A stretch of DNA of 37,313 nucleotides from a virus: positions 1-37,313 of IMG/VR virus record IMGVR_UViG_3300035092_000010; one strand, given 5' to 3'. The notes beneath the pieces are model-generated. The model searched no databases. It saw only the letters and a program-made list of their open reading frames with translations, and was not told the DNA's origin. This document shows positions 23,150-34,640 of the stretch, in pieces. Every line of letters begins with the position of its first letter. Positions within the stretch are counted from its first letter, which is position 1. The translations under genes were made by a program, and so were the position numbers.

Positions 23150-23415
23150 CACGCACCGCCCGCCGACCACACGGCCTGAACCGCGAGGATGTGTGCGCAC
23201 CGCCGCGAGCCGAGCCGGTTGGCCGGGCACTGGCACACCCACAGCGACGCCGACCCGGCCACGTGGTAGACGAGGTCGGACGACCCGGAGCGCACCGTGG
23301 CGTCCACCAGCTCGGGTGTGGCGTGCAGGATGCACACATGCCCGGTGGTCAGGTAGGCCATCGCCTTCTCGATCACCCCGGGCGAGGGGACCGCGGCCAG
23401 CTTCGGGGCGCTCAC
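23149..23415 (-). CDS. SWIM-type zinc finger protein, 88 aa
   Basis: GTG start (VSAPKLAAVPSPGVI) overlaps the upstream stop. The C-terminal half carries C61-x-C63-x9-C73-x-H75, exactly the SWIM zinc finger pattern (CxCx(n)CxH), within a strand-strand-helix order (LVYHVAGSASLWVCQCPANR, RRCAHILAVQAVW). SWIM domains bind nucleic acid or protein and occur in recombination mediators and transposases. The N-terminal ~50 residues form a small helical/strand cap. A stand-alone 88-aa SWIM gene is notable. Function unknown. Confidence 0.75.
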   Translation of the reverse strand: MSAPKLAAVPSPGVIEKAMAYLTTGHVCILHATPELVDATVRSGSSDLVYHVAGSASLWVCQCPANRLGSRRCAHILAVQAVWSAGGA

Positions 23416-23606
23416 TCGGCACCACACGCGAGGCAGCCGCGGGCGTGGTCGGCCAGGCAGTCCGAGCAGTAGACCAGCAGGCTGCCGCACTGCGCGTGCT
23501 CGGCCTCGTCGGCCGGCAGCGCGCGGTCGCAGCCGCCCTCGCACACGGTCCAGGTGTCGTCGCTGTCGCCGTGGGTGGCTTCGATGTAGTCCTCGTACAC
23601 GCTCAT
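23412..23606 (-). CDS. Cross-brace-like zinc protein, 64 aa
   Basis: First gene of the minus operon, ATG with GAGAGG 8 nt upstream. After an acidic N terminus come nine candidate ligands: C22-x3-C26-x10-H37-x2-C40-x6-C47-x2-C50-x3-H54-x3-C58-x2-C61. The order resembles LIM/RING-like cross-brace or double zinc fingers, so two zincs are likely. It is expressed from the divergent promoter at 23619-23665. It may bind a host protein or nucleic acid; no known family is claimed. Confidence 0.7.
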   Translation of the reverse strand: MSVYEDYIEATHGDSDDTWTVCEGGCDRALPADEAEHAQCGSLLVYCSDCLADHARGCLACGAE

Positions 23607-23618
23607 CGGGTGATCCTC

Positions 23619-23665
23619 TCGGGTGGTGTGCCACCACTCTACACCGCACGATGGTTGACAGTCAA
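23619..23665 (-). promoter_or_regulatory. Minus-strand promoter with leader motif
   Basis: On the minus strand: -35 TTGACT (plus coordinates 23660-23665), 18-nt spacer, -10 TAGAGT (23636-23641), then CACCACCCGA (23619-23628) seven bases after the -10, and the 23606 ATG. The -35 overlaps the plus-strand -35 inside an 11-bp palindrome, TTGACAGTCAA. Confidence 0.7.
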
Positions 23666-23701
23666 TGGCTGACAGGCATAGACTGTGGGCACACCACCCG
23701 A
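23655..23701 (+). promoter_or_regulatory. Plus-strand promoter with leader motif
   Basis: TTGACA (23655-23660), 18-nt spacer, TAGACT (23679-23684), then the leader motif CACCACCCGA (23692-23701) and a GGAGAG site before the ATG at 23711. This is a textbook sigma-70-like promoter for the early region. It overlaps the divergent promoter in the palindrome TTGACAGTCAA (23655-23665), so the two probably compete or share a regulator. Confidence 0.75.
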
Positions 23702-23710
23702 GGAGAGCAG

Positions 23711-23986
23711 ATGGAGAGCGGATGGGCGTGTGCGAACTGCGCGGCTCCAGCTGGTCCGGATGACCCGCCGACCTGCTGCGACTACCGCAACCCGAAACAC
23801 TTCCCGGGACACCCGACCCGATGGCGGGACTCGTTCCCCGGGCATGCCGCGCTCGCAGGCTCGCCGCCGCCCGTCCCGATCGGCGTCCGACCGAAGGATG
23901 CCGCCGCCTGGCGACACATGGCCGGCGAGTGCAACCCCGAGCGGTGTCGCTTTTGCGCACCGCACCGCCCGACCAGGAGGCCCTGA
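23711..23986 (+). CDS. Cysteine-rich early protein, 91 aa
   Basis: First gene of the rightward early operon, ATG with GGAGAG upstream. CAN-C (C7, C10) and CC (C22, C23) near the N terminus and ECNPERCRFC near the C terminus give several metal ligands, with a Pro/Gly-rich middle. It overlaps the ribbon-helix-helix gene (TGATG). A zinc-binding early regulator or host-interaction protein is possible; no family assigned. Confidence 0.6.
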   Translation: MESGWACANCAAPAGPDDPPTCCDYRNPKHFPGHPTRWRDSFPGHAALAGSPPPVPIGVRPKDAAAWRHMAGECNPERCRFCAPHRPTRRP

Positions 23987-24165
23987 TGGCCCGAGCCGAG
24001 CGGCCCCGCCGGTTCACCGCACAACTCGTCGTGCCTGTCACGGCCGAGATGCACGCCGCGCTCCGCGAGCAGGCGTCCGCCCGCGGCTGCTCTGTGGCCG
24101 ACCTCGTGCGCGAGGCGCTGGACGCCAGCGGCCCGCCGCTCACGGGGGAGGCGGCGGGCCGCTAG
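23986..24165 (+). CDS. Ribbon-helix-helix (CopG/Arc-like) DNA-binding protein
   Basis: 59 aa, ATG overlapping the preceding stop. FTAQLVVPVTAEMHAALREQ (residues ~10-29) followed by SVADLVREALDA is the strand-helix-turn-helix of the ribbon-helix-helix family, whose dimers read operators with the strand pair. It is the clearest transcription-factor candidate in the early region and may act on the divergent promoters 300 bp upstream or on the recurring leader motif; which site it uses is not shown. Its last codons form a perfect 13-bp hairpin (24127-24163). Confidence 0.75.
   Translation: MARAERPRRFTAQLVVPVTAEMHAALREQASARGCSVADLVREALDASGPPLTGEAAGR
24127..24163 (+). terminator. GC-rich hairpin at the end of the regulator gene
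   Basis: A 13-bp perfect stem (AGCGGCCCGCCGC at 24127-24139 pairing with 24151-24163) has an 11-base loop and ends in the TAG stop of the ribbon-helix-helix gene. No T run follows, so it could be an intrinsic-like actinobacterial terminator or an mRNA 3' stabiliser. A new promoter begins 0.1 kb downstream, which fits transcript separation. Confidence 0.5.
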
Positions 24166-24170
24166 GTGAC

Positions 24171-24217
24171 GACCACCCGGCAAGGAGCAGGAGCCCAACT
24201 TGCCCAGTACCACCCGA
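24171..24217 (+). promoter_or_regulatory. Two degenerate leader-motif copies without a gene
   Basis: GACCACCCGG (24171-24180) followed by AAGGAG, and TACCACCCGA (24208-24217) followed by AAAGGAG, look like the leader motif plus ribosome binding site. No convincing gene follows either copy. CCACCCG in the second copy (24210-24216) pairs perfectly with CGGGTGG at 24241-24247. They may be leader remnants of lost genes or binding sites. Confidence 0.4.
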
Positions 24218-24272
24218 GAAAGGAGATGCTCAACTGCTCCCGGGTGGCGTCGCGCTGAGTGTAGCGGACGGG

Positions 24273-24293
24273 TATACTCAAGGCACCACCCGA
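24273..24293 (+). promoter_or_regulatory. Promoter -10 with leader motif ahead of gene 24309
   Basis: TATACT (24273-24278), five bases (CAAGG), then CACCACCCGA (24284-24293), followed by GAGAGGG and the ATG at 24309. The -35 position (24249-24255) is poor. The distance puts the transcription start on the first bases of the motif. Confidence 0.65.
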
Positions 24294-24308
24294 CGAGAGG
24301 GCACCAAC

Positions 24309-24536
24309 ATGACCGCACACTCAGCAGCGCGGCGCCGGATCAACGCGCCCGCGCCACATTCGACCCGCCCCGGCCGGCGGGCCAACCGGCTCGATAGGGG
24401 CGGGGTTCGGGCCGGCCGGTTGTCCGGCTCCATCGCCGAGACCAAGACTGGCCGGGCGATCAATGCACTCGCACCGACCGTTGTCTTCGTGCCGGCCAAC
24501 AGCGAGCACGGCCAGCGTGGGGCGTGGGGCGCATGA
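24309..24536 (+). CDS. Small basic protein, 75 aa
   Basis: ATG after GAGAGGGCACCAAC, first gene after the 24273 promoter. The N-terminal half is strongly basic (AARRRINAP, RPGRRANRLDRGG), the rest mixed (GRAINALAPTVVFVPANSEH). It may bind nucleic acid by charge alone. It overlaps the next ATG (ATGA). No family recognised, and the high Arg content leaves some doubt, but the promoter, ribosome binding site and coupling support it. Confidence 0.55.
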   Translation: MTAHSAARRRINAPAPHSTRPGRRANRLDRGGVRAGRLSGSIAETKTGRAINALAPTVVFVPANSEHGQRGAWGA

Positions 24537-24742
24537 CCGAGCCCGAGCAGCCGGCCCGTCCGGCCGAGCCCATCGACCTCACCCCGCTGATCCGCAACGC
24601 GCCACCGATCGAGTTCGGCCCGGACGTCTGCGCCCGGATCGACGCGCTGCCCGACGCCACCCTGGACATCTCGGGATGGCACTTCGACTGCGACTGCGCG
24701 CTGTGCACCGCGAGCCTGCTGGAAATCCTGGGGGAGGCATGA
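24533..24742 (+). CDS. Hypothetical early protein, 69 aa
   Basis: ATG within an ATGA overlap (a GTG at 24524 is the alternative). It opens TEPEQPARPAEPIDLTPLIR, and the downstream RecT-like protein opens TEPTEAPREPIDPELLRRRQ, so the two N termini look related by a local duplication. FDCDCALC near the C terminus gives three cysteines for possible metal binding. It overlaps the RecT-like gene. Function unknown. Confidence 0.6.
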   Translation: MTEPEQPARPAEPIDLTPLIRNAPPIEFGPDVCARIDALPDATLDISGWHFDCDCALCTASLLEILGEA

Positions 24743-26166
24743 CCGAGCCGACCGAGGCGCCGCGCGAGCCCATCGACCCCGAACTCCTGCGGCGCCGGCA
24801 GGAGGCCCAGCTTGAGGTCTACCGGGCCAACTCCACCGCGCTGGACGTGGCGGTGCCCGAGACGATGCGCCAGAAGATGGCCCACGCCCGGGCGCTGGCG
24901 CAATCCGACCTCGTGCCGGCGGGCTTCCGCGCCGGAGTGAAGCCCGGCTTCGCCCTGACCGAGCGGCAGGTGGACATCGCCGCCGCCTCGATCGTGCTGG
25001 CGCAGTCCTGGGGCGAGCACCTGGGCTTCCGCGGCATGGCGTGGATGCAGCACCTGCACGTCGTGGAGAACCGGGTCGGCCTGCGGGAGGCGTCCGCCCG
25101 GGGAATGATCCTGGCGAAGGGCTGCGACATCGACGACGAGGTGACCTACTCCGCGACCGGGTTCCCCGTTGCGCACACGGTGACCCTCACCCGGCCCGGC
25201 CTCAAGCCGAAGTCGGCCACGTTCACGTTGGCGATGGCGCTGCAGGCCGAGTTGATCAGCGAGATCCGGACCGACGCGGCCGGCGAGGTGGTCGGCGTGG
25301 TCGCGGTCAGCGACAAGGGCAAGCCGCTGTCGTGGCAGAAGTACACCGGGGACATGCTGCGCCACCGGGCCACCGGGCGCATGGTCAACGCCTACGCCAT
25401 GGACATCACCGGCGGCATGGACCTGGCCCCGGAGATGGAGGAGCCCACTCCGGCCAGCCCAGCGCGCGTACAGGCCCGGCGCGAGGCGGTCGCCGAGACC
25501 GTCCAGCGGGTCACCGGAGAGCCGGCCGAGCCCGAGCCCTACGACCCGACCGCCGACCTGACGTTCATCGAGCAGGCCACCGGCCAGGCCGACCCGCCGC
25601 CATGGTGGGAGCATGCTGACGCCCGGGAACGGCTCGGGGTCAAGCGCCGCAACCACATCCAGGTGGCTGCCGACCGGGTCAAGGCATGGATCGAGGAGCA
25701 CCCCGACGAGGCCGAGCACCTGATGCCACACCCGGCCGACCTCGAACCGGTCGATGCCGAGATCGTGGATGACCCACCGGCCGACCTGATGGGCACCGAC
25801 GCCGTGGGCGCGGACGAGGTGCCGCCGGCCGGAGGCTGGCCGCCACTGTTCGAGGATCCGCCTGTCGCGCCGTTCCTGAACGTGGAGATGGCCGGCGGTC
25901 CGCTGCCCGGCGTGGACGACGTGCCGCTACCCGGGATGGAGGAGCCCGAAGCCGAGGCTGAGGACCAGCCGAGCCCGCCCACTGCGGCCGACCTGCTGGC
26001 CGTGCTCGACCGACTGGCCGAGGCTGCCGGCAAGAGCCTCGCTCAGTACCTCGTGCGCGACATCGCGCTGCTCCGCAAGAACCCGGACCAGTGGTCGGTC
26101 GAGCAGTTGGCCACCGTGATCAAGGCCCGCTCCGGGGTCACCGACGCGGACCTGGGGATCCGGTGA
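24739..26166 (+). CDS. RecT-like single-strand annealing protein
   Basis: 475 aa, ATG with GGGGGAGG upstream, overlapping the previous stop. Residues ~45-235 show the RecT pattern: HARALAQSDLVPAGFRAG, an Ala-rich helix with SWGEHLGFRGMAWMQHLHVV, and KPLSWQKYTGDMLRHRATGR followed by NAYAMDITGGMD. RecT-family proteins anneal complementary single strands in phage recombination and replication repair. Residues ~240-420 are a long acidic Pro/Glu/Asp linker, possibly a partner-binding tail, and the last ~60 are helical. The Cas4/RecB-like nuclease at 27203 is its likely exonuclease partner. Unusually long for RecT. Confidence 0.75.
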   Translation: MTEPTEAPREPIDPELLRRRQEAQLEVYRANSTALDVAVPETMRQKMAHARALAQSDLVPAGFRAGVKPGFALTERQVDIAAASIVLAQSWGEHLGFRGMAWMQHLHVVENRVGLREASARGMILAKGCDIDDEVTYSATGFPVAHTVTLTRPGLKPKSATFTLAMALQAELISEIRTDAAGEVVGVVAVSDKGKPLSWQKYTGDMLRHRATGRMVNAYAMDITGGMDLAPEMEEPTPASPARVQARREAVAETVQRVTGEPAEPEPYDPTADLTFIEQATGQADPPPWWEHADARERLGVKRRNHIQVAADRVKAWIEEHPDEAEHLMPHPADLEPVDAEIVDDPPADLMGTDAVGADEVPPAGGWPPLFEDPPVAPFLNVEMAGGPLPGVDDVPLPGMEEPEAEAEDQPSPPTAADLLAVLDRLAEAAGKSLAQYLVRDIALLRKNPDQWSVEQLATVIKARSGVTDADLGIR

Positions 26167-26435
26167 AGCTGCCCAGCACCGTCTATCGGCGCCGCGTGGC
26201 ACGGAAGGAGTGGGCCGGGTGTGGTGGCTACTGCCGCACCATCCAGCCCGGCGAGGTCTACTTGGAGGTGACCGAGTTGCCCGGTGGTGAGTCCGGCTAT
26301 GCCGACAGTGCCGGGCGACCGGTTCGGATGGCCGTGTGTGCACCGTGCGCCATGCGGCACGGCGACTACCAGGAGATCTACCCGGTGCCAGCCGAGCAGA
26401 TGGATCGGTACCGCCCGGCTCCTGCGATTCCGTGA
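26163..26435 (+). CDS. Zinc-ribbon-like protein, 90 aa
   Basis: GTG in a GTGA overlap with the RecT-like gene. C-G-G-Y-C in the N-terminal part and C-A-P-C in the C-terminal part (AVCAPCAMRHGDYQE) make a four-cysteine site; between them are strands (GEVYLEVTEL) like a treble-clef or ribbon fold. It may be an HNH-like or DNA-binding accessory, but no nuclease histidines are convincing. It overlaps the next GTG. Confidence 0.6.
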   Translation: MKLPSTVYRRRVARKEWAGCGGYCRTIQPGEVYLEVTELPGGESGYADSAGRPVRMAVCAPCAMRHGDYQEIYPVPAEQMDRYRPAPAIP

Positions 26436-26653
26436 CCGCCCGGCCGCGGTGCCCGGCCTGCTACCAGACGATGCCCTGGCACCCACCGGCCTGCCGGTGC
26501 GGGCATCCCGACTCCTCCCACCACGCCACCCCGGCCGGCCGGCTGACCTACTGCTGCGCCGGCTCGCAGGCCGGCAACTGCCCGTGCGAGCGGTACGAAC
26601 AGGCGACACCGGGCCGCTTCGGGCCGCTTGACCTGGCGCCCGGACCGGCCTAA
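26432..26653 (+). CDS. Cysteine-rich zinc protein, 73 aa
   Basis: GTG in a GTGA overlap. Ligands RCPAC, ACRCG, HPDSSHH, YCCAG and NCPCERY give nine cysteines and several histidines, enough for two zinc sites. The CRCGHPDSSHH segment resembles a short zinc motif found in small actinobacterial proteins. The stop lies inside the promoter region for 26686, so it ends its operon. Unknown function. Confidence 0.6.
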   Translation: MTARPRCPACYQTMPWHPPACRCGHPDSSHHATPAGRLTYCCAGSQAGNCPCERYEQATPGRFGPLDLAPGPA

Positions 26654-26676
26654 CGTCAAGGCACCACCCGACGTTA
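26628..26676 (+). promoter_or_regulatory. Promoter with leader motif and spanning inverted repeat
   Basis: TTGACC (26628-26633), 17-nt spacer, TAACGT (26651-26656), five bases, CACCACCCGA (26662-26671), then AGGAG and the ATG at 26686. CCTAACGT (26649-26656) and ACGTTAGG (26671-26678) form an 8-bp perfect inverted repeat around the -10 and the leader motif, an operator or 5' hairpin unique to this copy. Confidence 0.75.
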
Positions 26677-26685
26677 GGAGAACCG

Positions 26686-26859
26686 ATGTACACCCCGGCC
26701 GACACCCAGCGGGCCGCCCACGACCTGTACGACGCCCTGGCCGCCGCCGGCCTGTACGGACTGGACGGCCAAGCCTGGCGCGCGTACGCCATGGAGCACG
26801 ACCAGCACCCGGCCAGCGTGCCGGACCCCCACGCCGCCGACGACCCCGGAACGTACTGA
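26686..26859 (+). CDS. Small acidic protein, 57 aa
   Basis: ATG 7 nt after AGGAG, first gene behind the 26628 promoter. Helical N-terminal part (ADTQRAAHDLYDALAAAGLY) and an acidic His/Asp-rich tail (MEHDQHPASVPDPHAADDPG). The stop overlaps the next ATG (TGATG). The promoter, ribosome binding site and coupling make it a real gene although it is very short. No family recognised. Confidence 0.65.
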   Translation: MYTPADTQRAAHDLYDALAAAGLYGLDGQAWRAYAMEHDQHPASVPDPHAADDPGTY

Positions 26860-27206
26860 TGGGCGACCCGTGGATGGGAAACTACGATCCGTGCCGCAAA
26901 CTCCGGTGCTGTGCGACCTGTAGCGCGCATATCCTGACCAATGACGGCGTGAGCCAGAGCGTCTATTGCGCCGAGCATCAGCCGCGCTCCTTCGATGAAT
27001 GGGCCGCCACCGTCAAGCCCGACGACCGGGTATATCTACAGCCGGTAATGGCATGGCGTGGCCTGTCTCGCAGCGAAAACCTGGTGCTGGAGCGTGACGG
27101 AGATCTGCTCACGGTGCAGATTATCGGCATACCGGAATCGCGCCAGCAGGTCAGGATTACGCAATGCGCCGAGCGCGACATGACGCCTCGTCGGGGGATG
27201 TTGTGA
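26859..27206 (+). CDS. Cys-containing protein with lower-GC codon use, 115 aa
   Basis: ATG overlapping the preceding stop. The N terminus has CRKLRCCATC and later YCAEH, a likely zinc-binding set; the second half is beta-rich (DRVYLQPVMAWRGLS, DLLTVQIIGIPESRQQVRIT). Codon third positions are noticeably more A/T-rich (GCGCATATCCTGACCAAT) than those of neighbours, suggesting a recent arrival. It overlaps the nuclease GTG (GTGA). No family is recognised. Confidence 0.6.
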   Translation: MGDPWMGNYDPCRKLRCCATCSAHILTNDGVSQSVYCAEHQPRSFDEWAATVKPDDRVYLQPVMAWRGLSRSENLVLERDGDLLTVQIIGIPESRQQVRITQCAERDMTPRRGML

Positions 27207-28213
27207 GCGACCTCTGGGCCGACCTGGCCGCCGCCGATGCGCTGGAGCAGGAGTCCCGAGACCCCCGGGTCGGGCCGTCGGACGCGCGGGTGCTCGTGCC
27301 CGGCAAGGGCTGCCGGCGCCAGCTCGCCTACCGCGTCCAGCGAGTCGAGCCCGCCGACCCGGTGCCCGACCGGCTGGTCCGCGCCGCGATCCTCGGCAAG
27401 ATCCTGCACGCCGGGGTCGCAGCGGCCCGGCTGGCCGCGCACCCCGGCTGGCTGGTCGAGCAGCCGGTGACCGTACCCGGCTTCGACCGGCCCGGCCGGG
27501 TGGATGCCTACGAGACCGACAGCGCCACCGTGGACGACCTCAAGAGCCTGAGCGACAAGATGTACCAGCGGACCGCCGAACGTGGCTCAGCGGCCGATGC
27601 AGACGGCAAGCAGGTGGAGCTGTACGGGCTCGGGCTGGCGGTCGAGTACGGCCAGCCGGTCGAGCGGCTGTCGGTGACCTACCTGAACCGCTCCAGCGGC
27701 GAGAGCTTCGAGGACTCCTGGTCCTACGACCAGGCCGAGGCCGAGCGGACCGCGGCCGCCATGTACGCCGTGATCGACCTGACGGCCAGCACCCCGCCGG
27801 AAGGGATCCCGCGCGGCGGCCGGCACCCGGACTGGTCGCCGTGCGACTCCTGCCGCTGGCGGGCCCGCTGCTGGGGGGTCGAGCCCGGCCAGCCGGCACC
27901 GACGCTGGTCTCCGACCGGGCCGCTCCGGCGCAGGTCGAGGCCGCCGCCCGGCAGATGCGGGCACTGCGGGCCGAGCGGGCGCGGGTGCAGGACGCCATC
28001 GACTACTGCCGGGAGGTACTGGTGAGCCACGACGGGGCCGCGTACGAGGATGTGGACGGCACGAGGAGGCGGATCCGCTGGACCGCCGGGCGCCCGCCGG
28101 GCGAGGGCGGGGCGCTGGATCAGGCCGCCGCCCGGGCGATCCTCGAGCACTACGGCGAGACGCCACCCACCCTGGGCACCTCGCCCCGGGTCAGCTTCCC
28201 GGCGGTGCGGTGA
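27203..28213 (+). CDS. PD-(D/E)XK nuclease, Cas4/RecB-like
   Basis: 336 aa, GTG in a GTGA overlap. GRVDAYETD (D101) and VDDLKS (D112-L-K114) give the D...DxK core of PD-(D/E)XK exonucleases, and GKILHAG supplies the upstream histidine. One cysteine near the N terminus (GKGCRRQ, C37) and three later (SPCDSCRWRARCWG: C214, C217, C223) match the Cas4/AdnB iron-sulfur arrangement. It probably resects DNA ends to make single strands for the RecT-like protein at 24739. The C-terminal ~90 residues are a helical extra domain. The nuclease call is strong; polarity is unknown. Confidence 0.85.
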   Translation: MSDLWADLAAADALEQESRDPRVGPSDARVLVPGKGCRRQLAYRVQRVEPADPVPDRLVRAAILGKILHAGVAAARLAAHPGWLVEQPVTVPGFDRPGRVDAYETDSATVDDLKSLSDKMYQRTAERGSAADADGKQVELYGLGLAVEYGQPVERLSVTYLNRSSGESFEDSWSYDQAEAERTAAAMYAVIDLTASTPPEGIPRGGRHPDWSPCDSCRWRARCWGVEPGQPAPTLVSDRAAPAQVEAAARQMRALRAERARVQDAIDYCREVLVSHDGAAYEDVDGTRRRIRWTAGRPPGEGGALDQAAARAILEHYGETPPTLGTSPRVSFPAVR

Positions 28214-28404
28214 TGGGCCGCGTTCAGGAACTGTCCACGATCGAGATCGAGTCGGGCGTCTCGCTATTCGACGGCAAGCCGTTCTGCCACATCCACGCGA
28301 AGTCGCATAGCGGAGTGCAGATGGGCGGCCAGCTACGCGGGATCGGGCTCGAGGACAAGGTGATCGGGCCATTCATCGTAGGGCTCCGAGAGCGGCGCTC
28401 GTGA
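28213..28404 (+). CDS. Hypothetical protein, 63 aa
   Basis: ATG overlaps the nuclease stop (TGATG). Beta-rich start (VQELSTIEIESGVSLFDGKP) then FCHIHAKSHSGVQMGG, with three histidines close together and one cysteine. It overlaps the next GTG. It could assist the nuclease, but nothing specific is recognised. Confidence 0.55.
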   Translation: MGRVQELSTIEIESGVSLFDGKPFCHIHAKSHSGVQMGGQLRGIGLEDKVIGPFIVGLRERRS

Positions 28405-28646
28405 GCGCCACCCTGCCGGAGGATGCCGCCGAGACGCTGCGCGCCCTGCATGCCCGCCTGCCGGTCGCCAGGGCCGAGGCGCGGGCCATCCGGGACGCGG
28501 CCCGCGGCGCGCTGGTCGCCGAGCTGGAGCGGCTGCACGCCAGCCCACCGGACGGGCTCGGCGTGCCCTACGCCGCGATGGCCCGGGCGCTGGGCATCTC
28601 CGGGCAGGCCCTGCACGACCTGCGGACGGGCCGGAGTCGGCCGTGA
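28401..28646 (+). CDS. Small helix-turn-helix protein, 81 aa
   Basis: GTG in a GTGA overlap. A long helix (AETLRALHARLPVARAEARA) leads to VPYAAMARALGISGQALHDL (residues ~54-73), a standard helix-turn-helix with the recognition helix in GISGQALHDLRTGRSR. It may regulate early genes or act as a DNA-binding accessory. It overlaps the methyltransferase GTG. Confidence 0.65.
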   Translation: MSATLPEDAAETLRALHARLPVARAEARAIRDAARGALVAELERLHASPPDGLGVPYAAMARALGISGQALHDLRTGRSRP

Positions 28647-29239
28647 GGGTGCTGGTCGCCTGCGAGTTTAGCGGTCGCGTGCGAGACGCCTTCCGCGCCC
28701 GCGGGCACGACGCATGGTCGCTCGACCTGGAGCCCACCGCGGCCGACCCGCGATGGCATATCCGCGCCGACCTGTCCGCGGTGGACCTGACCGGCTGGGA
28801 CGTGCTGCTCGCCTTCCCACCCTGCACCTACCTGACCGCCAGCAACGCCTGGCGCTGGACCGAGATCGCGACTCAGCGCGCTGCAGCGCTGGACTTCGTG
28901 CGGATGATCCTCGCCGCACCGGTACCGCGGATCGCCGTGGAGAACCCGGCCGGCGCCATCGGTACCCAGATCCGCCCGGCTGATCAATATGTGGACCCGT
29001 GGCAGTTCGGCGACCCGTGGACCAAGCGCACCGGCCTCTGGCTGTCCGGCCTGCCGCCACTGGTGCCGGCCGTGGCGTCCAGGCCGCCGGACACGGCGCC
29101 GTGGTGCCAGGCCGGATACGGGCCGCGGCGGCCCAGCGGAACCCGCCAGCCTGGCGGTCAAGTGCGCCGTGCCGCGCTGCGCAACCTGACCTTCCCGGGG
29201 ATCGCCCGGGCTATGGCCGAACAGTGGAGCCGGCCGTGA
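28643..29239 (+). CDS. C5-cytosine methyltransferase-like protein, short
   Basis: 198 aa, GTG in a GTGA overlap. VACEFSG (residues 5-11) is the AdoMet-binding motif I, FPPCTYL contains the Pro-Cys catalytic pair with C61, and VENP (99-102) matches the ENV motif. The family is the short Dcm-like DNA methylase found in many actinophages, much smaller than bacterial enzymes of ~350-400 aa, so the target recognition region is reduced. It may modify phage DNA against host restriction. Catalytic residues look complete. Confidence 0.75.
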   Translation: MRVLVACEFSGRVRDAFRARGHDAWSLDLEPTAADPRWHIRADLSAVDLTGWDVLLAFPPCTYLTASNAWRWTEIATQRAAALDFVRMILAAPVPRIAVENPAGAIGTQIRPADQYVDPWQFGDPWTKRTGLWLSGLPPLVPAVASRPPDTAPWCQAGYGPRRPSGTRQPGGQVRRAALRNLTFPGIARAMAEQWSRP

Positions 29240-29406
29240 CCGCTTCGGTCAGCCCGGAACTCGGCCCGTGCGCGGGCTGCGGCCGGCCCATGGTGACCGC
29301 GCTGGCCTACCGCCGGGTGCCCCGCTGGCGGGAAGCCGGGTACGTCGCGTTCCGGGCGCGCGGGCGGTGCGGCACGTGCTACTCACGGGCTCGGGAGCGG
29401 ACATAG
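29236..29406 (+). CDS. Four-cysteine zinc finger protein, 56 aa
   Basis: GTG in a GTGA overlap with the methyltransferase gene. GPCAGCGRPM and GRCGTCYSR place two C-x2-C knuckles about 30 residues apart around a basic strand region (YRRVPRWREAGYVAFRARG), a zinc ribbon likely to touch nucleic acid. It ends just before a palindromic operator-like site at 29404, so it closes this operon. Too short for many gene finders. Confidence 0.65.
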   Translation: MTASVSPELGPCAGCGRPMVTALAYRRVPRWREAGYVAFRARGRCGTCYSRARERT

Positions 29407-29444
29407 TGACACTAGCGGCACAACCGGCCCGCGCGGTAGTGTCT
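29404..29444 (+). promoter_or_regulatory. Promoter and palindromic operator ahead of the excisionase-like gene
   Basis: TAGTGACACTA (29404-29414) is a perfect 11-bp palindrome, and TAGTGTCT (29437-29444) repeats a half-site 33 bases on. TAGTGT (29437-29442) fits the TANNNT -10 and lies 6 nt before the ATG at 29449, with no ribosome binding site. This predicts a leaderless mRNA, and the -10 lying in a half-site suggests self-repression. No good -35 was found. Confidence 0.5.
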
Positions 29445-29448
29445 GCCC

Positions 29449-29640
29449 ATGCAACCGCCGCCCGACCTGATCTCCCTTCAGGCTGCCGCCGACCTGCTCG
29501 GCGTCCATAACCGCACCGTCCGTCGCTGGATCACCATCGGTCGGATCCGAGGCTGGCGGCTCGGGCCGCGGTTGCTGCGCGTGGAACTGTCCGAGGTGCT
29601 CGGGCAGGTCCAGCCCGATGGTGTCGAGCAATCAGCGTGA
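29449..29640 (+). CDS. Excisionase/MerR-type helix-turn-helix protein
   Basis: 63 aa. LISLQAAADLLGVHNRTVRR and WITIGRIRGWRLGPRLLRVE form the winged-helix HTH_17 pattern of Xis/MerR-like small regulators. In phages it can direct excision or repress promoters, but no integrase is present here, so regulation is more likely. The ATG has no ribosome binding site, and a -10 box 6 nt upstream points to leaderless translation. It overlaps the replication gene GTG. Confidence 0.75.
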   Translation: MQPPPDLISLQAAADLLGVHNRTVRRWITIGRIRGWRLGPRLLRVELSEVLGQVQPDGVEQSA

Positions 29641-30494
29641 CGTGGTTCCGCGTGGACGACACGCTGTGCGGCCACAGCAAGCCGCGCCGCGCCGGCCTCG
29701 CCGCGCTCGGACTGTGGACGGTCGCCGGCTCCTGGTGCGGCGACCAACTCTCCGACGGACAGGTGCCGGCATGGTTCGTCGCGTCGTGGCCAGCCGGCCG
29801 CCGGCTCGCGGCTGGCCTCGTGCTGGCCCGCCTCTGGCACGAAGCTGGGCACGATTGCGGCCAGTGTCCACAGCCTGTGGACGATCACGGGTGGGTGTTC
29901 CACGACTGGCACCAGTGCAACCCGACCAGGGCTGCTGAGCTGGACAAACGGGCGAAGCGGGCCGCCGCCGGCCGACTCGGCGGGCTCAAATCTGGACACT
30001 CCCGAGCAAGCAAACCCGAAGCAAATGCTTCAGCAAGTGCTACACGAATCGTTGAACCCCGACCCGGCCCTACCCAAAGAACTAACTCTTACGTACCAGC
30101 ACCGGTGACAGAAACCCACGCGCGCGAAGATCCACACGGACAACCGGGACGGATCGAGGCGCTGCTGCAGGAGCACGTCCAGGCCGTCGGCAAGGTCAAC
30201 CCCCGGGCAATGACAGAGCTCGGCGGACACCTCGCGGAGCTCTGCCGAGCCGGCTACACCGATGAGGAGATCCGGGCAGGCTTCGTGCTCTGGCGCAAGA
30301 CTGGCGTCCGGCCGAGCTCACTACCCGACCAGGTGGACTACGCCCGTCGCAACGGCGCACGGATACCCAACGGCCGGGCCGGCTCCACCACCAACGACCG
30401 CGTACAGCAGGCGCTCGACGCGGGCGCCCGAGTGCAGGCTCTGGCCGACTCCGGCCAGCTTGACCAACACCAACCCCGAAGGATGATCCAGTGA
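29637..30494 (+). CDS. Probable replication initiation protein
   Basis: 285 aa, GTG in a GTGA overlap. The N-terminal ~115 residues (TWFRVDDTLCGHSKPRRAGL...GHDCGQCPQPVDDHGWVFHD) are a winged-helix-like domain seen in actinophage replication proteins, with clustered Cys/His. Residues ~120-160 are encoded by an AT-rich stretch with AGCAA repeats, a possible internal origin. The C-terminal domain (IEALLQEHVQAVGKVNPRAM, GYTDEEIRAGFVLWRKTGVR) is helical and DnaD-like. Like lambda O, it may bind the origin in its own gene and recruit the helicase loader encoded next. Confidence 0.6.
   Translation: MTWFRVDDTLCGHSKPRRAGLAALGLWTVAGSWCGDQLSDGQVPAWFVASWPAGRRLAAGLVLARLWHEAGHDCGQCPQPVDDHGWVFHDWHQCNPTRAAELDKRAKRAAAGRLGGLKSGHSRASKPEANASASATRIVEPRPGPTQRTNSYVPAPVTETHAREDPHGQPGRIEALLQEHVQAVGKVNPRAMTELGGHLAELCRAGYTDEEIRAGFVLWRKTGVRPSSLPDQVDYARRNGARIPNGRAGSTTNDRVQQALDAGARVQALADSGQLDQHQPRRMIQ
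30000..30115 (+). other. AT-rich, iteron-like segment; candidate replication origin
   Basis: Within the replication gene, AGCAA occurs at 30005, 30009, 30020 and 30032, and GAAGCA-AA-TGCTTC (30018-30031) is a perfect inverted repeat. The following ~80 bases include AAAGAACTAACTCTTACG and are poorer in GC than nearly all of the genome. Lambda and related phages place ori inside the initiator gene. Position and composition fit an origin; function is untested. Confidence 0.45.
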
Positions 30495-30811
30495 CCCCGA
30501 CCGAGATCGGCCAGCTTCTCGCCTACGCCGCGGCGTTCGACAAACGCACGGTCGGCGAGGCCGACGTGATCGCATGGCACGACGTGCTCAGCGACCTGCA
30601 CTATGACCGGGCCAAGGATGCGATCCGCGCCTGGTACGCCGATCACGACACCATGATCATGCCGGCCAACGTGCGCCGCGCCGTGAAGGCCGCCACCCCG
30701 CCGTGGGCGCGGCCGGCCAGCGAGGTGCTGGACGAGATCGAGCGGAACGTCGAAATCGAGCGCCGCCAGTTCCGGCTGGACGGCTACCAGGTCGGGCGGG
30801 ACATGCCGTGA
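30491..30811 (+). CDS. Candidate helicase loader (G39P-like), 106 aa
   Basis: GTG in a GTGA overlap with the initiator gene. IGQLLAYAAAFDKRTVGEAD, VIAWHDVLSDLHYDRAKDAI and RAWYADHDTMIMPANVRRAV follow the small all-helical domain of the phage G39P-type helicase loader and inhibitor family. The C terminus is a charged helix (SEVLDEIERNVEIERRQFRL). Order initiator then loader mirrors lambda O-P and SPP1. The DnaB-type helicase itself is not encoded, so the host's would be recruited. Inference from pattern and order. Confidence 0.55.
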   Translation: MTPTEIGQLLAYAAAFDKRTVGEADVIAWHDVLSDLHYDRAKDAIRAWYADHDTMIMPANVRRAVKAATPPWARPASEVLDEIERNVEIERRQFRLDGYQVGRDMP

Positions 30812-31101
30812 CGCGCGACTGGACCGTGCCGGACGAGCCGTGGGAGAACGACCACGCCCACCAGGCGCTCAATCAGTGGATCTACATGTTCCGCCAGTCC
30901 CACCCCAGCGCCGATCTGCCTAACGTGGCGTTCACCGCGCACATCGGCCGCGAGGCGGTCGCGCTGGCTGACGGCATGGGCCGGATCGAACTCCTGCGGC
31001 TGTTCGCGGGCGCCGGCACCGACGGCGAGTGTGTGTGCGGCATGGCCTGGACCGCCCGGCCGCTGCCGCTTGTGCCGGTACCGGAGACGGTGGAGTCCTG
31101 A
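30808..31101 (+). CDS. Hypothetical protein, 97 aa
   Basis: GTG in a GTGA overlap. An acidic/aromatic start (TRDWTVPDEPWENDHAHQAL) is followed by NQWIYMFRQSHPSADLPNVA and a helix (GREAVALADGMGRIELLRLF). ECVCGMAW has two cysteines. The gene stops at the TGA that abuts the -10 box of the next promoter. Presumed replication-region accessory; no family recognised. Confidence 0.55.
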   Translation: MTRDWTVPDEPWENDHAHQALNQWIYMFRQSHPSADLPNVAFTAHIGREAVALADGMGRIELLRLFAGAGTDGECVCGMAWTARPLPLVPVPETVES

Positions 31102-31122
31102 TACCCTCAAGGCACCACCCGA
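31102..31122 (+). promoter_or_regulatory. Promoter -10 with leader motif ahead of the helicase
   Basis: TACCCT (31102-31107), CAAGG, CACCACCCGA (31113-31122), then CGAACGGAG and the ATG at 31136. No clear -35 is seen. The 27 bases around the motif (CTCAAGG...CGAACGGAGC) are nearly identical to those ahead of 33867. Confidence 0.6.
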
Positions 31123-31135
31123 CGAACGGAGCCTG

Positions 31136-32527
31136 ATGGACTACGCCGATTTTTTGGCCGCGAAGCGCTGGAAGGCGCCAGCCAGCGGGTACGACTGCAC
31201 CGCCGACGATGTGGCCGCCGACCTGTTCGACTTTCAGGCGCACATCACCGCGTGGGCCCTGCGGCGCGGCCGGGCCGCGATCTGGACCGACACCGGCACC
31301 GGCAAGACGCGCATGCAGGTCCGGTGGCTGGAATACCTGGCCGCCCGTGGTGTCCGCGGCCTACTGCTGGCACCGCTGGGGGTGACCGCACAGACGGTGA
31401 GGGAGGCCGCGGCCATCGGCGTGCCCATCGCGTACGCCCACAATCAGACCGAAATCGCCGGGCCGATCACCATCACCAACTACGATCGGCTGCACCTGTT
31501 CGACCCGGCGACGTTCGGCGCGGTTGTGCTGGACGAGTCGAGCATCCTCAAGGCGTACTCCGGAGTCACCAAGCGCGCGCTCGTCGCCGCGTTCCGGAAC
31601 ACCCCGTACCGACTCGCGTGCACCGCCACGCCCGCCCCGAACGACATCGAGGAGCTGTGTAATCACGCCGACTTCCTTGGCGTGATGACCCCGCAGGAGA
31701 TGCGGTCCACGTTCTTCATCGCCGACTCCCGCGGCGAGTTCATGAAGTACCGAATGAAGGGTCACGCCAAGCGTGCATTCTACGAGTGGCTGGCGGACTG
31801 GGCGATGGCCTGTCGCAGTCCGGCCGACCTGGGGTTCGACGGCTCCGCGTATGTGCTGCCACCGCTGAACATTACCGACCACCTCATTGCCACCGACGGA
31901 TGGACGGCCGAAGGTGAGCTATTTACCACCGCACTGAAGGGAGTCACCCACCGCGCGCAGATCCGCCGCGACACGGTGAGTGACCGCGTGGCCGCGGCGG
32001 TCCGGCTGATACATGCCGAGTCGGCCGAACAGTGGCTTGTATGGTGTGGCCGCAATGATGAGGCCGCTGGAGTCGCTGCGGCCATCGCGGGTGCGGTGAA
32101 TATCCAGGGCAGCGACACCGCCGAGGTGAAGGCGGATGCGCTGGCCGACTTCGCTGCGGGCCGCGTCCGCGTGCTCATAACCAAACCGACTATTGCCGGC
32201 TACGGAATGAACTTCCAGCGCTGCGCCCGGCAGGTGTTCGTCGGACTCGGTGATTCCTATGAGCTGTACTACCAGGGCATCCGCCGCTGCTGGCGATTCG
32301 GCCAGGACCGGCCGGTCGAGGTGCACATCATCCTGACCGACCTGGAGCGGGCCATCGCCGCCAATGTGCGCGCCAAGGAGCGCCGCGCGCAGGAGGTGAC
32401 CGGCGGCCTCGTCGCCGCGGTTGCCGAGCACAACCGCCGTGAGCTGTTCGCCGGCACCTCCGCAGGCGATGACTACGAACCGCGCCGGCCGATGGTCCGG
32501 CCCGAATGGCTGGAGACCGCCACGTGA
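31136..32527 (+). CDS. SNF2/SF2-type DNA helicase
   Basis: 463 aa, ATG after GGAGCCTG behind a leader-motif promoter. Motif I TGTGKT (residues 53-58), motif II LDESS, motif III ACTATPAPND, and the C-terminal RecA domain with GYGMNFQ and QGIRRCWRFGQDRPVEV (motif VI) are all present, as in SNF2-related phage helicases. It translocates on or remodels DNA with ATP; whether it drives replication, recombination or displaces proteins is unclear. The 4-base overlap with the beta-class methyltransferase suggests a functional pair. Confidence 0.88.
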   Translation: MDYADFLAAKRWKAPASGYDCTADDVAADLFDFQAHITAWALRRGRAAIWTDTGTGKTRMQVRWLEYLAARGVRGLLLAPLGVTAQTVREAAAIGVPIAYAHNQTEIAGPITITNYDRLHLFDPATFGAVVLDESSILKAYSGVTKRALVAAFRNTPYRLACTATPAPNDIEELCNHADFLGVMTPQEMRSTFFIADSRGEFMKYRMKGHAKRAFYEWLADWAMACRSPADLGFDGSAYVLPPLNITDHLIATDGWTAEGELFTTALKGVTHRAQIRRDTVSDRVAAAVRLIHAESAEQWLVWCGRNDEAAGVAAAIAGAVNIQGSDTAEVKADALADFAAGRVRVLITKPTIAGYGMNFQRCARQVFVGLGDSYELYYQGIRRCWRFGQDRPVEVHIILTDLERAIAANVRAKERRAQEVTGGLVAAVAEHNRRELFAGTSAGDDYEPRRPMVRPEWLETAT

Positions 32528-33504
32528 CCGACCGCATCATGGACCAGGCGAGCGGAACCGACTGGGTGCTGTACAACGGCGACTCCGCCGAAGCCCTCCC
32601 AGGCCTGCCGGCATCGTCGGTGGACCTCGCCGTGTTCTCTCCGCCGTTCTCGTCCACATACACCTATTCCCCCTCCGACCGTGACCTAGGCAACGTCTCC
32701 AGCGATGAGATGTTCTGGCAGCAGTTCGGTTACATCACCCGTGAGTTGTTGCGGGTGATGCGCCCCGGCCGTCTGGTGGCTATCCACGTGGCAAATCTTC
32801 CAGCCTATGAGAACACCCACGGAGCCTCGGGCCGCCGGGACTTCCGTGGCGACACCATCCGCCACTTCCAGGAGTGCGGATTCGTCTACCACTCCGAGAT
32901 CGGCATCGATAAGAACCCGCAGGCGCAGGCGATCCGCACCCACTCCAAGGGCCTGCTGTTTGTCCAGCTCGCCCGCGACGCAGCCGCGATGTGGCAGGCA
33001 TGGGCCGACTATGTGGTCATCATGCGCACGCCCGGGAGGAACGCCGTCCCTGTCCACACTGACCTGACGCAGGAGGACTGGATCGACTTCGCCCGCCCGG
33101 TCTGGCCGATCCTTGGCCGGGAGGTCGACCAGCTCGGCCTGGAGTGGGCCGAGCTGCTCGCCGGCCAATGGTGGCGCGGCATCCGGGAGACCGACGTGCT
33201 CGGCGTCCGGGATGGCAACCTCGGCAGCCGACACGCCGCAGCAGCCGATGACGAGCGGCACCTATGTCCGCTGCAGCTACCCGTGATCGAGCGTGCGGTC
33301 CGGCTGTGGTCGAACCCCGGCGAGGTGGTGCTGTCACCGTTCGCCGGGATCGGGTCGGAGGGGGTTGGAGCGCTCCGGCTGGCCCGCCGATTCGTCGGAG
33401 TGGAACTGAAGCCCGACTACTTCCGCGTTGCCGCCCGCAACTGTCGCGCAGTGGAGGTGGCCCGGAATGAGGCGACCCTGTTCGACGAAGTGGACGCGTC
33501 GTGA
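32524..33504 (+). CDS. Beta-class N6-adenine/N4-cytosine DNA methyltransferase
   Basis: 326 aa, GTG overlapping the helicase stop. The catalytic motif IV FSPPFSS (S39-P40-P41-F42) comes first and the AdoMet-binding motif SPFAGIGSEGVG (F273) last, the order of beta-class enzymes such as N6_N4_Mtase. SPPF rather than DPPY favours N4-cytosine or a variant of N6-adenine activity. The middle ~150 residues would hold target recognition. No cognate nuclease is nearby, so an orphan, anti-restriction or regulatory role is likely. Confidence 0.85.
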   Translation: MTDRIMDQASGTDWVLYNGDSAEALPGLPASSVDLAVFSPPFSSTYTYSPSDRDLGNVSSDEMFWQQFGYITRELLRVMRPGRLVAIHVANLPAYENTHGASGRRDFRGDTIRHFQECGFVYHSEIGIDKNPQAQAIRTHSKGLLFVQLARDAAAMWQAWADYVVIMRTPGRNAVPVHTDLTQEDWIDFARPVWPILGREVDQLGLEWAELLAGQWWRGIRETDVLGVRDGNLGSRHAAAADDERHLCPLQLPVIERAVRLWSNPGEVVLSPFAGIGSEGVGALRLARRFVGVELKPDYFRVAARNCRAVEVARNEATLFDEVDAS

Positions 33505-33614
33505 TCGCGGTCCTGCCCGCCCTCGCCCTCGCGCTGCTGGCCGGCGCCGCACTACTGACCCGCCCCGCCCGTCCGCCCGAGCGCGGCTACTGGCCGTTCG
33601 AGGGCTGGCGCTAA
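33501..33614 (+). CDS. Tiny single-helix membrane protein, 37 aa
   Basis: GTG overlapping the methyltransferase stop (GTGA). One hydrophobic helix (IAVLPALALALLAGAALL) is followed by a short basic/aromatic tail (RPARPPERGYWPFEGWR). The TAA stop is rare in this genome. The coupling and clean hydrophobic-to-basic switch support it; function unknown. Confidence 0.5.
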   Translation: MIAVLPALALALLAGAALLTRPARPPERGYWPFEGWR

Positions 33615-33629
33615 CCGAAGGGAACTCCC

Positions 33630-33812
33630 ATGTCGAACAACCCCATCCCGCCCACGGTCCCGCTGGCGCAAGCTGCCGAGCACGTGATCCGCGAGGGTCG
33701 CGGCCCGCACCCCCGGCACTCCGGCACCCCGGTGGAGCCCTCGGCCAGCACCATCCGGATGCGCGGCCGGCAGGCGAACCGGGCGGCCGAGGCGATCCGC
33801 CGGGAGTCTTGA
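33630..33812 (+). CDS. Small basic protein, 60 aa
   Basis: ATG with GAAGGGA upstream, 15 bases after the preceding stop. NNPIPPTVPLAQAAEHVIRE forms a short helical start; the rest is Pro-rich then basic (STIRMRGRQANRAAEAIRRE), possibly nucleic-acid binding. Its last codons overlap the -35 TTGACG of the next promoter. No family recognised. Confidence 0.55.
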   Translation: MSNNPIPPTVPLAQAAEHVIREGRGPHPRHSGTPVEPSASTIRMRGRQANRAAEAIRRES

Positions 33813-33851
33813 CGGCCGGCACCACCGTGCTAGTCTCAAGCCACCACCCGA
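33809..33851 (+). promoter_or_regulatory. Promoter with leader motif ahead of gene 33867
   Basis: TTGACG (33809-33814), 16-nt spacer, TAGTCT (33831-33836), five bases, CACCACCCGA (33842-33851), then CGAACGGAG and the GTG at 33867. The stretch CCACCACCCGACGAACGGAG is nearly the same as the one before the helicase gene. Confidence 0.7.
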
Positions 33852-33866
33852 CGAACGGAGCTTCCC

Positions 33867-34640
33867 GTGCCCATCGACACCGACCGCCTCGCCGGCATCC
33901 GGCACCTCGCCTCGGGCGGCCACGACGCCCCTGACTCCCCCGACGACGAGATGTGCCTCATGGAGGCCGTCGCCTACGTCCTGGGGATCCCACACACCGA
34001 CCACCCGCCGTGCGTGTCGGGTTGGCTGGGCTCGCTCGGCCGCTCACTGAACGATCGGCTGCCCACCGAGGCCCGGCAGCTCCTGATCCCGCTGATCCCC
34101 CTGCTGCCGGGCACTGCCGGCGACGGGCTGGACGAGCGCCGCAGGTGGCTCGCCGCGAACTACTCGACCCGCACGCTCGCGCCGAAGTGGCTCGACCGCG
34201 CCGGCCTCACCGACCACGCCGCCGCGCTCCGTGCGCTGCCGGAGATCGTGGACGAGGACACCTACGACGCGGCGTATCCGACGGTGAGGGCGGCCAGGGA
34301 TGCGGCGTGGAAGCTCCGCAGCGAGCGGTACGGCACGATCCGCGCCCGGGTGCGGGAGTCCCTGAAGGACCGGCCCGCTGTCACTGTCGCTGCCGCTGCC
34401 GCTGTCACTGCCGCTGACGCTGCCGCTGTCACTGCCGCTGACGCTGTCGCTGCCGCTGCCGCTGTCACTGTCACTGCCGCTGACGCTGTCGGCTCCGACC
34501 GCTACTGGGCGGTTCGCGACGCGGTCTACAACAAGGTCCGGACGCTGTGCGAAGAGCGCCACGCCGACCTGATCGCCGAGACCCACGCCGACGCCATCGA
34601 CCTGTACGAGCGGCTGATCCGCTGCGAGGTGGCCGCGTGA
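33867..34640 (+). CDS. Unknown protein with Ala/Val/Thr/Asp repeat tract
   Basis: 257 aa, GTG behind a leader-motif promoter. The N-terminal ~70 residues (DDEMCLMEAVAYVLGIPHTD, CVSGWLGSLGRSLNDRLP) resemble a family frequent in actinophages and actinobacteria, function unknown. Residues ~172-207 are a low-complexity Ala/Val/Thr/Asp tract encoded by 18 hexanucleotide units (34381-34488). A charged helical C terminus (YNKVRTLCEERHADLIAETH) follows. The tract looks like a flexible or helical spacer that can change length without a frameshift. Confidence 0.6.
   Translation: MPIDTDRLAGIRHLASGGHDAPDSPDDEMCLMEAVAYVLGIPHTDHPPCVSGWLGSLGRSLNDRLPTEARQLLIPLIPLLPGTAGDGLDERRRWLAANYSTRTLAPKWLDRAGLTDHAAALRALPEIVDEDTYDAAYPTVRAARDAAWKLRSERYGTIRARVRESLKDRPAVTVAAAAAVTAADAAAVTAADAVAAAAAVTVTAADAVGSDRYWAVRDAVYNKVRTLCEERHADLIAETHADAIDLYERLIRCEVAA
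34381..34488 (+). repeat. Hexanucleotide tandem repeat, 18 units
   Basis: Eighteen 6-base units of the form [TCA]C[GA]CTG (TCACTG, TCGCTG, CCGCTG, ACGCTG) run without a break inside the 33867 gene. Larger blocks also repeat, for example TCACTG-CCGCTG-ACGCTG twice or more. Because the unit is 6 bases, copy-number change would add or remove two residues and keep the frame. Such tracts are prone to slippage. Confidence 0.9.

Follow-up and report, generated by a model that had tools for sequence, protein, structure and literature searches.

What do the early operons of an uncultured phage have in common at their promoters, and is that common sequence read as DNA or as RNA? The question is raised by a 37.3-kb IMG/VR virus record with a GC content of 71% (hereafter the window, the whole stretch of DNA that was analysed), which represents an uncultured bacterial virus. 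Its left part carries endolysin, terminase, portal and capsid genes, and the 24–34 kb region is a recombination and replication block encoding a RecT-like protein, a PD-(D/E)XK exonuclease, two DNA methyltransferases, a replication initiation protein and a helicase. The host is likely an actinobacterium, judging from the GC content and from tail and portal proteins that match those of Streptomyces phages. The original prediction was that a short motif, CACCACCCGA, recurs in six exact copies on both strands, at a fixed distance behind a −10 box and ahead of a ribosome binding site (RBS).

Six exact copies open six early operons

Each of the six copies lies where it was predicted, on the predicted strand, against 0.16 copies expected from shuffles (s.d. 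0.39, largest 2). All are found in short intergenic gaps that open six operons, are oriented with the downstream gene (6/6), are followed by an RBS and a start codon, and fall within the early region at 23.6–33.9 kb. The copies and the features near them are as follows.

23619..23628, minus strand: copy 1, leftward promoter P1; TAGAGT-GGTGGCAC-ACCACCCGA; −10 at 23641-23636; −35 TTGACT at 23665-23660, spacer 18; ATG at 23606
23692..23701, plus strand: copy 2, promoter P2; −35 TTGACA at 23655-23660, spacer 18; −10 TAGACT at 23679-23684, then GTGGGCAC-ACCACCCGA; ATG at 23711
23986..24165, plus strand: ribbon-helix-helix (RHH) protein, last gene of the P2 operon; weak Pfam NikA-like/FitA-like RHH match, below cut-off
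24125..24166: strong GC hairpin AGCGGCCCGCCGCTCACGGGGGAGGCGGCGGGCCGCT at the end of the RHH gene
24171-24180: further copy with two mismatches, near the extra copy at 24209
24209..24217, plus strand: extra exact ACCACCCGA without a −10 box, downstream of the RHH gene and 76 nt upstream of copy 3
24273..24302, plus strand: copy 3, promoter P3, operon of the RecT-like gene; TATACTCAAGGCACCACCCGACGAGAGGGC; no recognisable −35; ATG at 24309
26651..26680, plus strand: copy 4, promoter P4, operon of the PD-(D/E)XK exonuclease; −35 TTGACC at 26628-26633; TAACGTCAAGGCACCACCCGACGTTAGGAG; ATG at 26686
31102..31131, plus strand: copy 5, promoter P5, helicase and methyltransferase operon; TACCCTCAAGGCACCACCCGACGAACGGAG; no recognisable −35; ATG at 31136
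33831..33860, plus strand: copy 6, promoter P6; −35 TTGACG at 33809-33814, spacer 16; TAGTCTCAAGCCACCACCCGACGAACGGAG; GTG at 33867

The phase described earlier holds at every copy: CACCACCCGA begins 5 nt past the −10 box in four (CAAGG or CAAGC) and 7 nt past it (GGTGGCA, GTGGGCA) in the divergent pair P1/P2, whose −35 boxes overlap in the palindromic TTGACAGTCAA. A longer cassette, TANNNTCAAGSCACCACCCGACGNNNGGAG, is common to four copies, which form one 34-nt family. Calling as −35 any TTGACA-like hexamer with at most one mismatch and a spacer of 16–18 gave boxes at the copies at 23619 (minus strand), 23692, 26662 and 33842 and none at 24284 and 31113. The motif can be refined: the part that does not vary is ACCACCCGA, and most sites have CARG in front of it.

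The arrangement TANNNT-N6..8-ACCACCCGA was observed six times against 0.02 expected in the window, where TANNNT occurs at a density of 0.00064 per position. A motif-blind search for TANNNT followed by up to 40 nt, an SD, a start codon and an ORF returned seven places in the window, six of which are the tagged promoters. The window also has 25 copies of ACCACCCGA with a single mismatch; no phased −10 box accompanies any of them, so the promoter-linked copies are all exact. The search with up to two mismatches that had been proposed gave a divided outcome: exact copies map to gene starts, but copies with up to two mismatches are near chance level (94 versus 76 ± 8.5).

Several neighbouring features are recorded here in their own right. 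The −10 box of P4 incorporates the TAA stop codon of the preceding gene, and the P4 tag is enclosed by a 9-bp inverted repeat, CCTAACGTC...GACGTTAGG (26648-26677). The HTH_17/excisionase-like gene at 29449 has an apparent leaderless promoter, TAGTGT-CTGCCC-ATG, without ACCACCCGA, so not every promoter need carry the tag; it is enclosed by an inverted repeat, GACACTA...TAGTGTC (29410-29451), which is untagged and looks like an autoregulatory site. Within the P6 gene, 12-nt tandem repeats of the CCGCTGTCACTG type (34375-34500) code for an Ala/Val/Thr-rich stretch.

Conservation in two further phage contigs

IMG/VR pattern scans that included the −10 box yielded two informative records, G012 (contig L064) and G006 (contig L014). 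G012, of 46.3 kb, is syntenic with the window, with amino-acid identities of 73% for the exonuclease, 75% for the tail protein, 68% for the portal, approximately 65% for the RecT-like protein, 71% for the P6 gene product and 40% for the helicase. It has five promoter-linked copies, given here together with an untagged promoter and an extra copy.

4874: copy between homologs of two window genes, the one just ahead of P5 (before the copy) and the second one behind P6 (after it)
39004, minus strand: counterpart of P1; TATGTT-TGCACT-ACCACCCGAGAGGAG
39060: P2 promoter, kept but untagged, the motif lost or never present
39995: extra copy, ACCACCCGACG, 86 nt upstream of the G012 P3 copy
40069: counterpart of P3, at the same position as in the window
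43086: counterpart of P4, at the same position as in the window
46252: copy at the contig end

Judged by its neighbours, the copy at 4874 is not strictly orthologous to P5 or P6. The extra promoterless copies correspond in the two phages; their distances from the P3 copy, 76 nt in the window and 86 nt in G012, differ by about one turn of the helix. At the contig-end copy, a perfect 8-bp inverted repeat, CGGGTGGT...ACCACCCG, flanks the −10 box (46230-46275; L064 8003-8048). At the same promoters of G012, the genes that come first behind P3 and P4 in the window are without a counterpart and the first gene behind P1 has only a 17-residue match, while core genes further into the operons are orthologous; in G012 it is P3 that precedes the homolog of the P6 gene. 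With leading genes that change from one relative to the other, the element goes with the promoter position and not with the gene.

G006 is a 22.6-kb siphophage contig with tape measure, portal and head protease genes that is otherwise largely unrelated, with one gene only detectably similar to the window. Its single copy, TAACCTCAAGCCACCACCCGACGAACGGAGATTGTTATG, is identical to P6 over 24 nt, and the whole cassette stands before another gene. The pattern TANNNTN6ACCACCCGACGA matches 39 contigs, and since only L014 and L064 run on into an SD and a start codon, the larger element is not a common accident.

Anchoring on the −10 box, which is present in 12/12 sites, we aligned 12 promoter sites (six from the window, five from G012 and one from G006) taken from three contigs, of which G012 and G006 may be fragments. 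ACCACCCGA is intact in all 12 sites, 6 nt past the −10 box in 10 and 8 nt past it in two (window P1 and P2 only), and position 7 after the −10 box, the predicted start, is A throughout. Initiation normally occurs 6–8 nt past a −10 box, so the tag should be the first sequence transcribed. Nine class A sites (P3–P6, G006 and four of G012) have the bipartite form TANNNT-CARG-NN-ACCACCCGAC, with CAGC in one, and three sites of divergent regulatory promoters (P1/P2 type) have ACCACCCGA alone, without CARG. Between the class A sites of the window and of G012, identity is 35% upstream of the −10 box (32 nt), 21% in the NNN of the −10, 81% at positions 1–4, 22% at positions 5–6, 100% in ACCACCCGA and 24% after the SD. 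Two conserved blocks, the first of them upstream of the predicted start, are separated by two freely drifting bases, and both the −10 NNN and the sequence upstream of the −10 have drifted to background. Neither the window nor G012 has a single-mismatch copy with a phased −10 box. The sites have no inverted repeat in common, with 34–35% identity only ahead of the −10 box, and the dyads of single sites differ from one another. Leaders are approximately 20–25 nt long, with the tag ahead of the SD and the motif 9–15 nt before the start codon; the SD is nearly phased too, with G at position 21 in 12/12 sites. In folding calculations the tag is mostly unpaired in 4/6 window leaders (unpaired 0.35–0.88).

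A check set beforehand, that a shared promoter-phased element be kept in relatives while spacers drift, was borne out in G012. As ACCACCCGA is kept letter for letter while the surrounding DNA changed, it very probably serves to control the early genes. We read the repeat as a sequence-specific control element that forms part of the early promoters in this phage group, and it is under strong purifying selection in the two related phages.

Wider searches added no further set. A 30-nt copy gave chance matches only, and no counterpart, against 50,697 phage records; no phased copy occurs in seven other phage genomes, mostly of high GC, and no such set in EBPR podovirus 1, GMA1, phiSASD1, Chymera, Dagobah or MW202713, or in IMG/VR helicase and portal relatives (36–51% identity). 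The exact 17-mer CAAGGCACCACCCGACG has three matches in viral contigs (L006–L008), inside genes or without promoter context, which we regard as chance. Apart from L014, CACCACCCGACGANNGGAG occurs before possible starts in L030 and L033–L035, where a phased TANNNT-CARG was not found and the matches were not counted (L034 and L035 start too near the match for the promoter to be judged), and by chance in L031 and L032. The seven scattered matches of TANNNTCAAGNCACCACCCGA in genome contigs were called chance from taxonomy alone; none is in Actinobacteria, which gives no support for a host-wide motif. The letters of CACCACCCGA occur in 27 papers, and among the 20 of these that were listed no title concerns a phage.

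DNA operator, RNA tag and other readings

The evidence leans towards the DNA operator, one of the options in the original prediction. We give about even weight to the proposal that the element is an asymmetric operator lying over the predicted transcription start of each early operon and bound by a phage regulator. A putative phage-encoded DNA-binding protein would recognize it as double-stranded DNA and, by covering the start site, would repress the early operons coordinately (shut-off or silencing), much as the operators and stoperators of Cluster A mycobacteriophages work, which are likewise asymmetric and orientation-dependent. The element sits directly downstream of sigma-70/SigA-type −10 boxes, always oriented with transcription. 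Two features speak for DNA rather than RNA: the position of CARG, ahead of the predicted start, and the presence in each of the two phages of an extra copy that has no −10 box. Bipartite recognition is plausible, and the extra copy behind the RHH operon may be an auxiliary or stoperator-type site. Several observations fit an operator less well: operator sets usually vary among sites, whereas ACCACCCGA is invariant in all 12; CARG is missing at the three P1/P2-type sites; and the G012 P2 promoter is without the motif.

The RHH protein, named as a candidate reader in the original prediction, keeps that status: it is a possible reader of the element, and we would assign it this role with less confidence than the operator itself. 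Its G012 ortholog is 42% identical, scores above the RHH_1 cut-off and has the same place, closing the P2 operon next to the extra copy; an absence from G012 first suggested by tblastn was rejected when the diverged ortholog was found on reading the sequence. The hairpin at the end of the RHH gene, with a comparable one at the same place in G012, is probably the terminator of the P2 operon. Against the RHH protein, such proteins normally bind repeated or palindromic sites, and the element is neither. Among the early genes scanned, from contigs that may be incomplete, the RHH and HTH_17/excisionase-like proteins are the only regulator-like products seen, and no classical or Cluster A-type repressor was found, which also counts against an operator. 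So does the lack of support for lysogeny, as neither PF00589 (tyrosine integrase) nor PF00239 (serine recombinase) was detected in the three possibly incomplete contigs. The P1 operon encodes a small SWIM zinc-finger-like protein (23152-23412, minus strand; below the Pfam cut-off; G012 version 53% identical over 70 amino acids), possibly another nucleic-acid-binding regulator.

A serious though less likely alternative is that transcripts begin with A(CA)CCACCCGA and that a phage or host factor acting in translation, stability or antitermination of phage mRNAs recognizes their first 9–11 nt as RNA. Invariance beginning exactly at the predicted +1, with A in every site and the −10 phase described above, would be equally expected of an RNA 5′-end signal, and the complete lack of variation in the invariant block fits one; the uniformly short leaders, the nearly phased SD and the mostly unpaired tag in 4/6 of them agree with it. 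Against it, CARG is conserved although it is upstream of the predicted start, the extra conserved copies do not mark the 5′ end of a transcript on that strand, the tag pairs to a variable extent, and no RNA family matches at the gathering threshold. It is rather doubtful that the early mRNAs all share a 5′-terminal tag, A(+1)CCACCCGAC, recognized as RNA for selective translation, protection or processive transcription of phage transcripts, a logic that would be comparable to that of a viral leader sequence.

Optimization of promoter and leader without a dedicated factor is unlikely. In this account the discriminator and initial transcribed sequence are tuned for promoter escape, the leader is G-poor and unstructured, and one cassette has been copied. 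The composition does suit an open leader in a phage of 71% GC, and the 34-nt family of four window copies and the 24-nt identity between G006 and P6 are what copying would leave. Yet the −10 NNN, positions 5–6 and the flanks are at background while ACCACCCGA is unchanged in 12/12 sites, no single-mismatch version has a phased −10 box, and neither the seven other phage genomes nor any actinobacterial genome of the collection (searched with TANNNTCAAGNCACCACCCGA) offers a comparable copy.

A phage antisense RNA directed at the tag is very unlikely. Such an RNA would be transcribed leftward from the stretch ahead of P3, which carries the complement UCGGGUGGU. In G012 a near-consensus minus-strand promoter, CTGACA-18-TATGAT (40030), reads through the extra copy into a strong hairpin. 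The minus-strand RNAs of both phages (window 24120-24256; L115 7911-8024) are predicted to fold far more stably than shuffled sequences (z −5.6 and −5.0), with the anti-tag about half unpaired. The corresponding region of the window has no convincing minus-strand promoter, however, duplexes with the leaders have energies inside or close to the shuffled-RNA range, the hairpins are explained as terminators with unconserved sequence between them, and no Rfam match reaches the gathering level. Chance or an assembly artefact, favoured by nothing beyond the high GC content, can be dismissed given the counts against shuffles (6 versus 0.16 and 6 versus 0.02), the independent recurrence in two other contigs and, decisively, conservation in G012.

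Relation to known phage repeats

Repeated start- or promoter-associated motifs are already known in actinophages, the inverted repeats of Cluster EG being one type. The SAS and ESAS of Cluster K (PMC3203893; Adephagia, PMC11373665) and the motifs of Microbacterium Cluster EF (PMC7302621) are multi-copy, asymmetric and in one orientation before non-structural gene starts, and SAS/ESAS have been on record since 2011 without an assigned function (PMC3203893, PMC11373665, PMC7302621). The analogy to Cluster K SAS drawn in the original prediction is apt as to kind: the element shares the single orientation and the position at starts of non-structural genes (6/6 copies). It differs in sequence and place, as had been noted, since the SAS is the RBS itself, a 13-bp GGGATAGGAGCCC-type sequence that precedes the start codon by 3–7 nt and has no set relation to a −10 box (PMC3203893, PMC11373665), whereas CACCACCCGA is upstream of the SD and phased to the −10. 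The closer parallel is the ESAS, which contains a SigA-like promoter, as does the element (−10 in 12/12 sites, good −35 in 4/6 window sites), but ESAS carry a conserved imperfect inverted repeat of 15–17 bp (PMC3203893, PMC11373665), and here no inverted repeat is common to the sites. The element lacks the defining features of both SAS and ESAS.

The operators and stoperators of Cluster A phages (L5, TipsytheTRex) are asymmetric, orientation-dependent and located in promoters and short intergenic gaps (PMC9283540). The element resembles them in layout only, being asymmetric, oriented with transcription and also present in promoterless intergenic positions (24209; G012 39995); Cluster A genomes have more than 20 13-mer sites genome-wide (PMC9283540) versus 6–8 here, where the sequence is different and phased to the predicted start. 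SPBRE of Bacillus phage SPbeta, a 15-bp repeat in promoter regions bound by the master repressor MrpR, an integrase-fold protein, was recognized from sequence long before its binding protein was found (PMC10516654). The element is likewise repeated in several phage promoter regions and differs in host, sequence and type of repressor, with no PF00589 domain detected here. The 17-bp repeat of Cluster O mycobacteriophages (34 copies, many in genes; PMC4351075) is similarly near-invariant and partly intergenic but, unlike the element, is palindromic, often inside genes and not promoter-phased.

The element is compact, exact and phased to the −10 box, and it has been kept in two diverged relatives as well as in a phage that is largely unrelated; because this holds while most other promoter positions drift, it makes a clean testable case. 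One phage offers six operons, a natural untagged variant exists in the G012 P2 promoter, and one possible DNA-binding protein is encoded adjacent. Should it turn out to work as RNA, phage mRNAs with a common 5′ tag would come as a surprise. Whichever mechanism applies, a co-regulated early gene set of an uncultured phage group is predicted from sequence alone.
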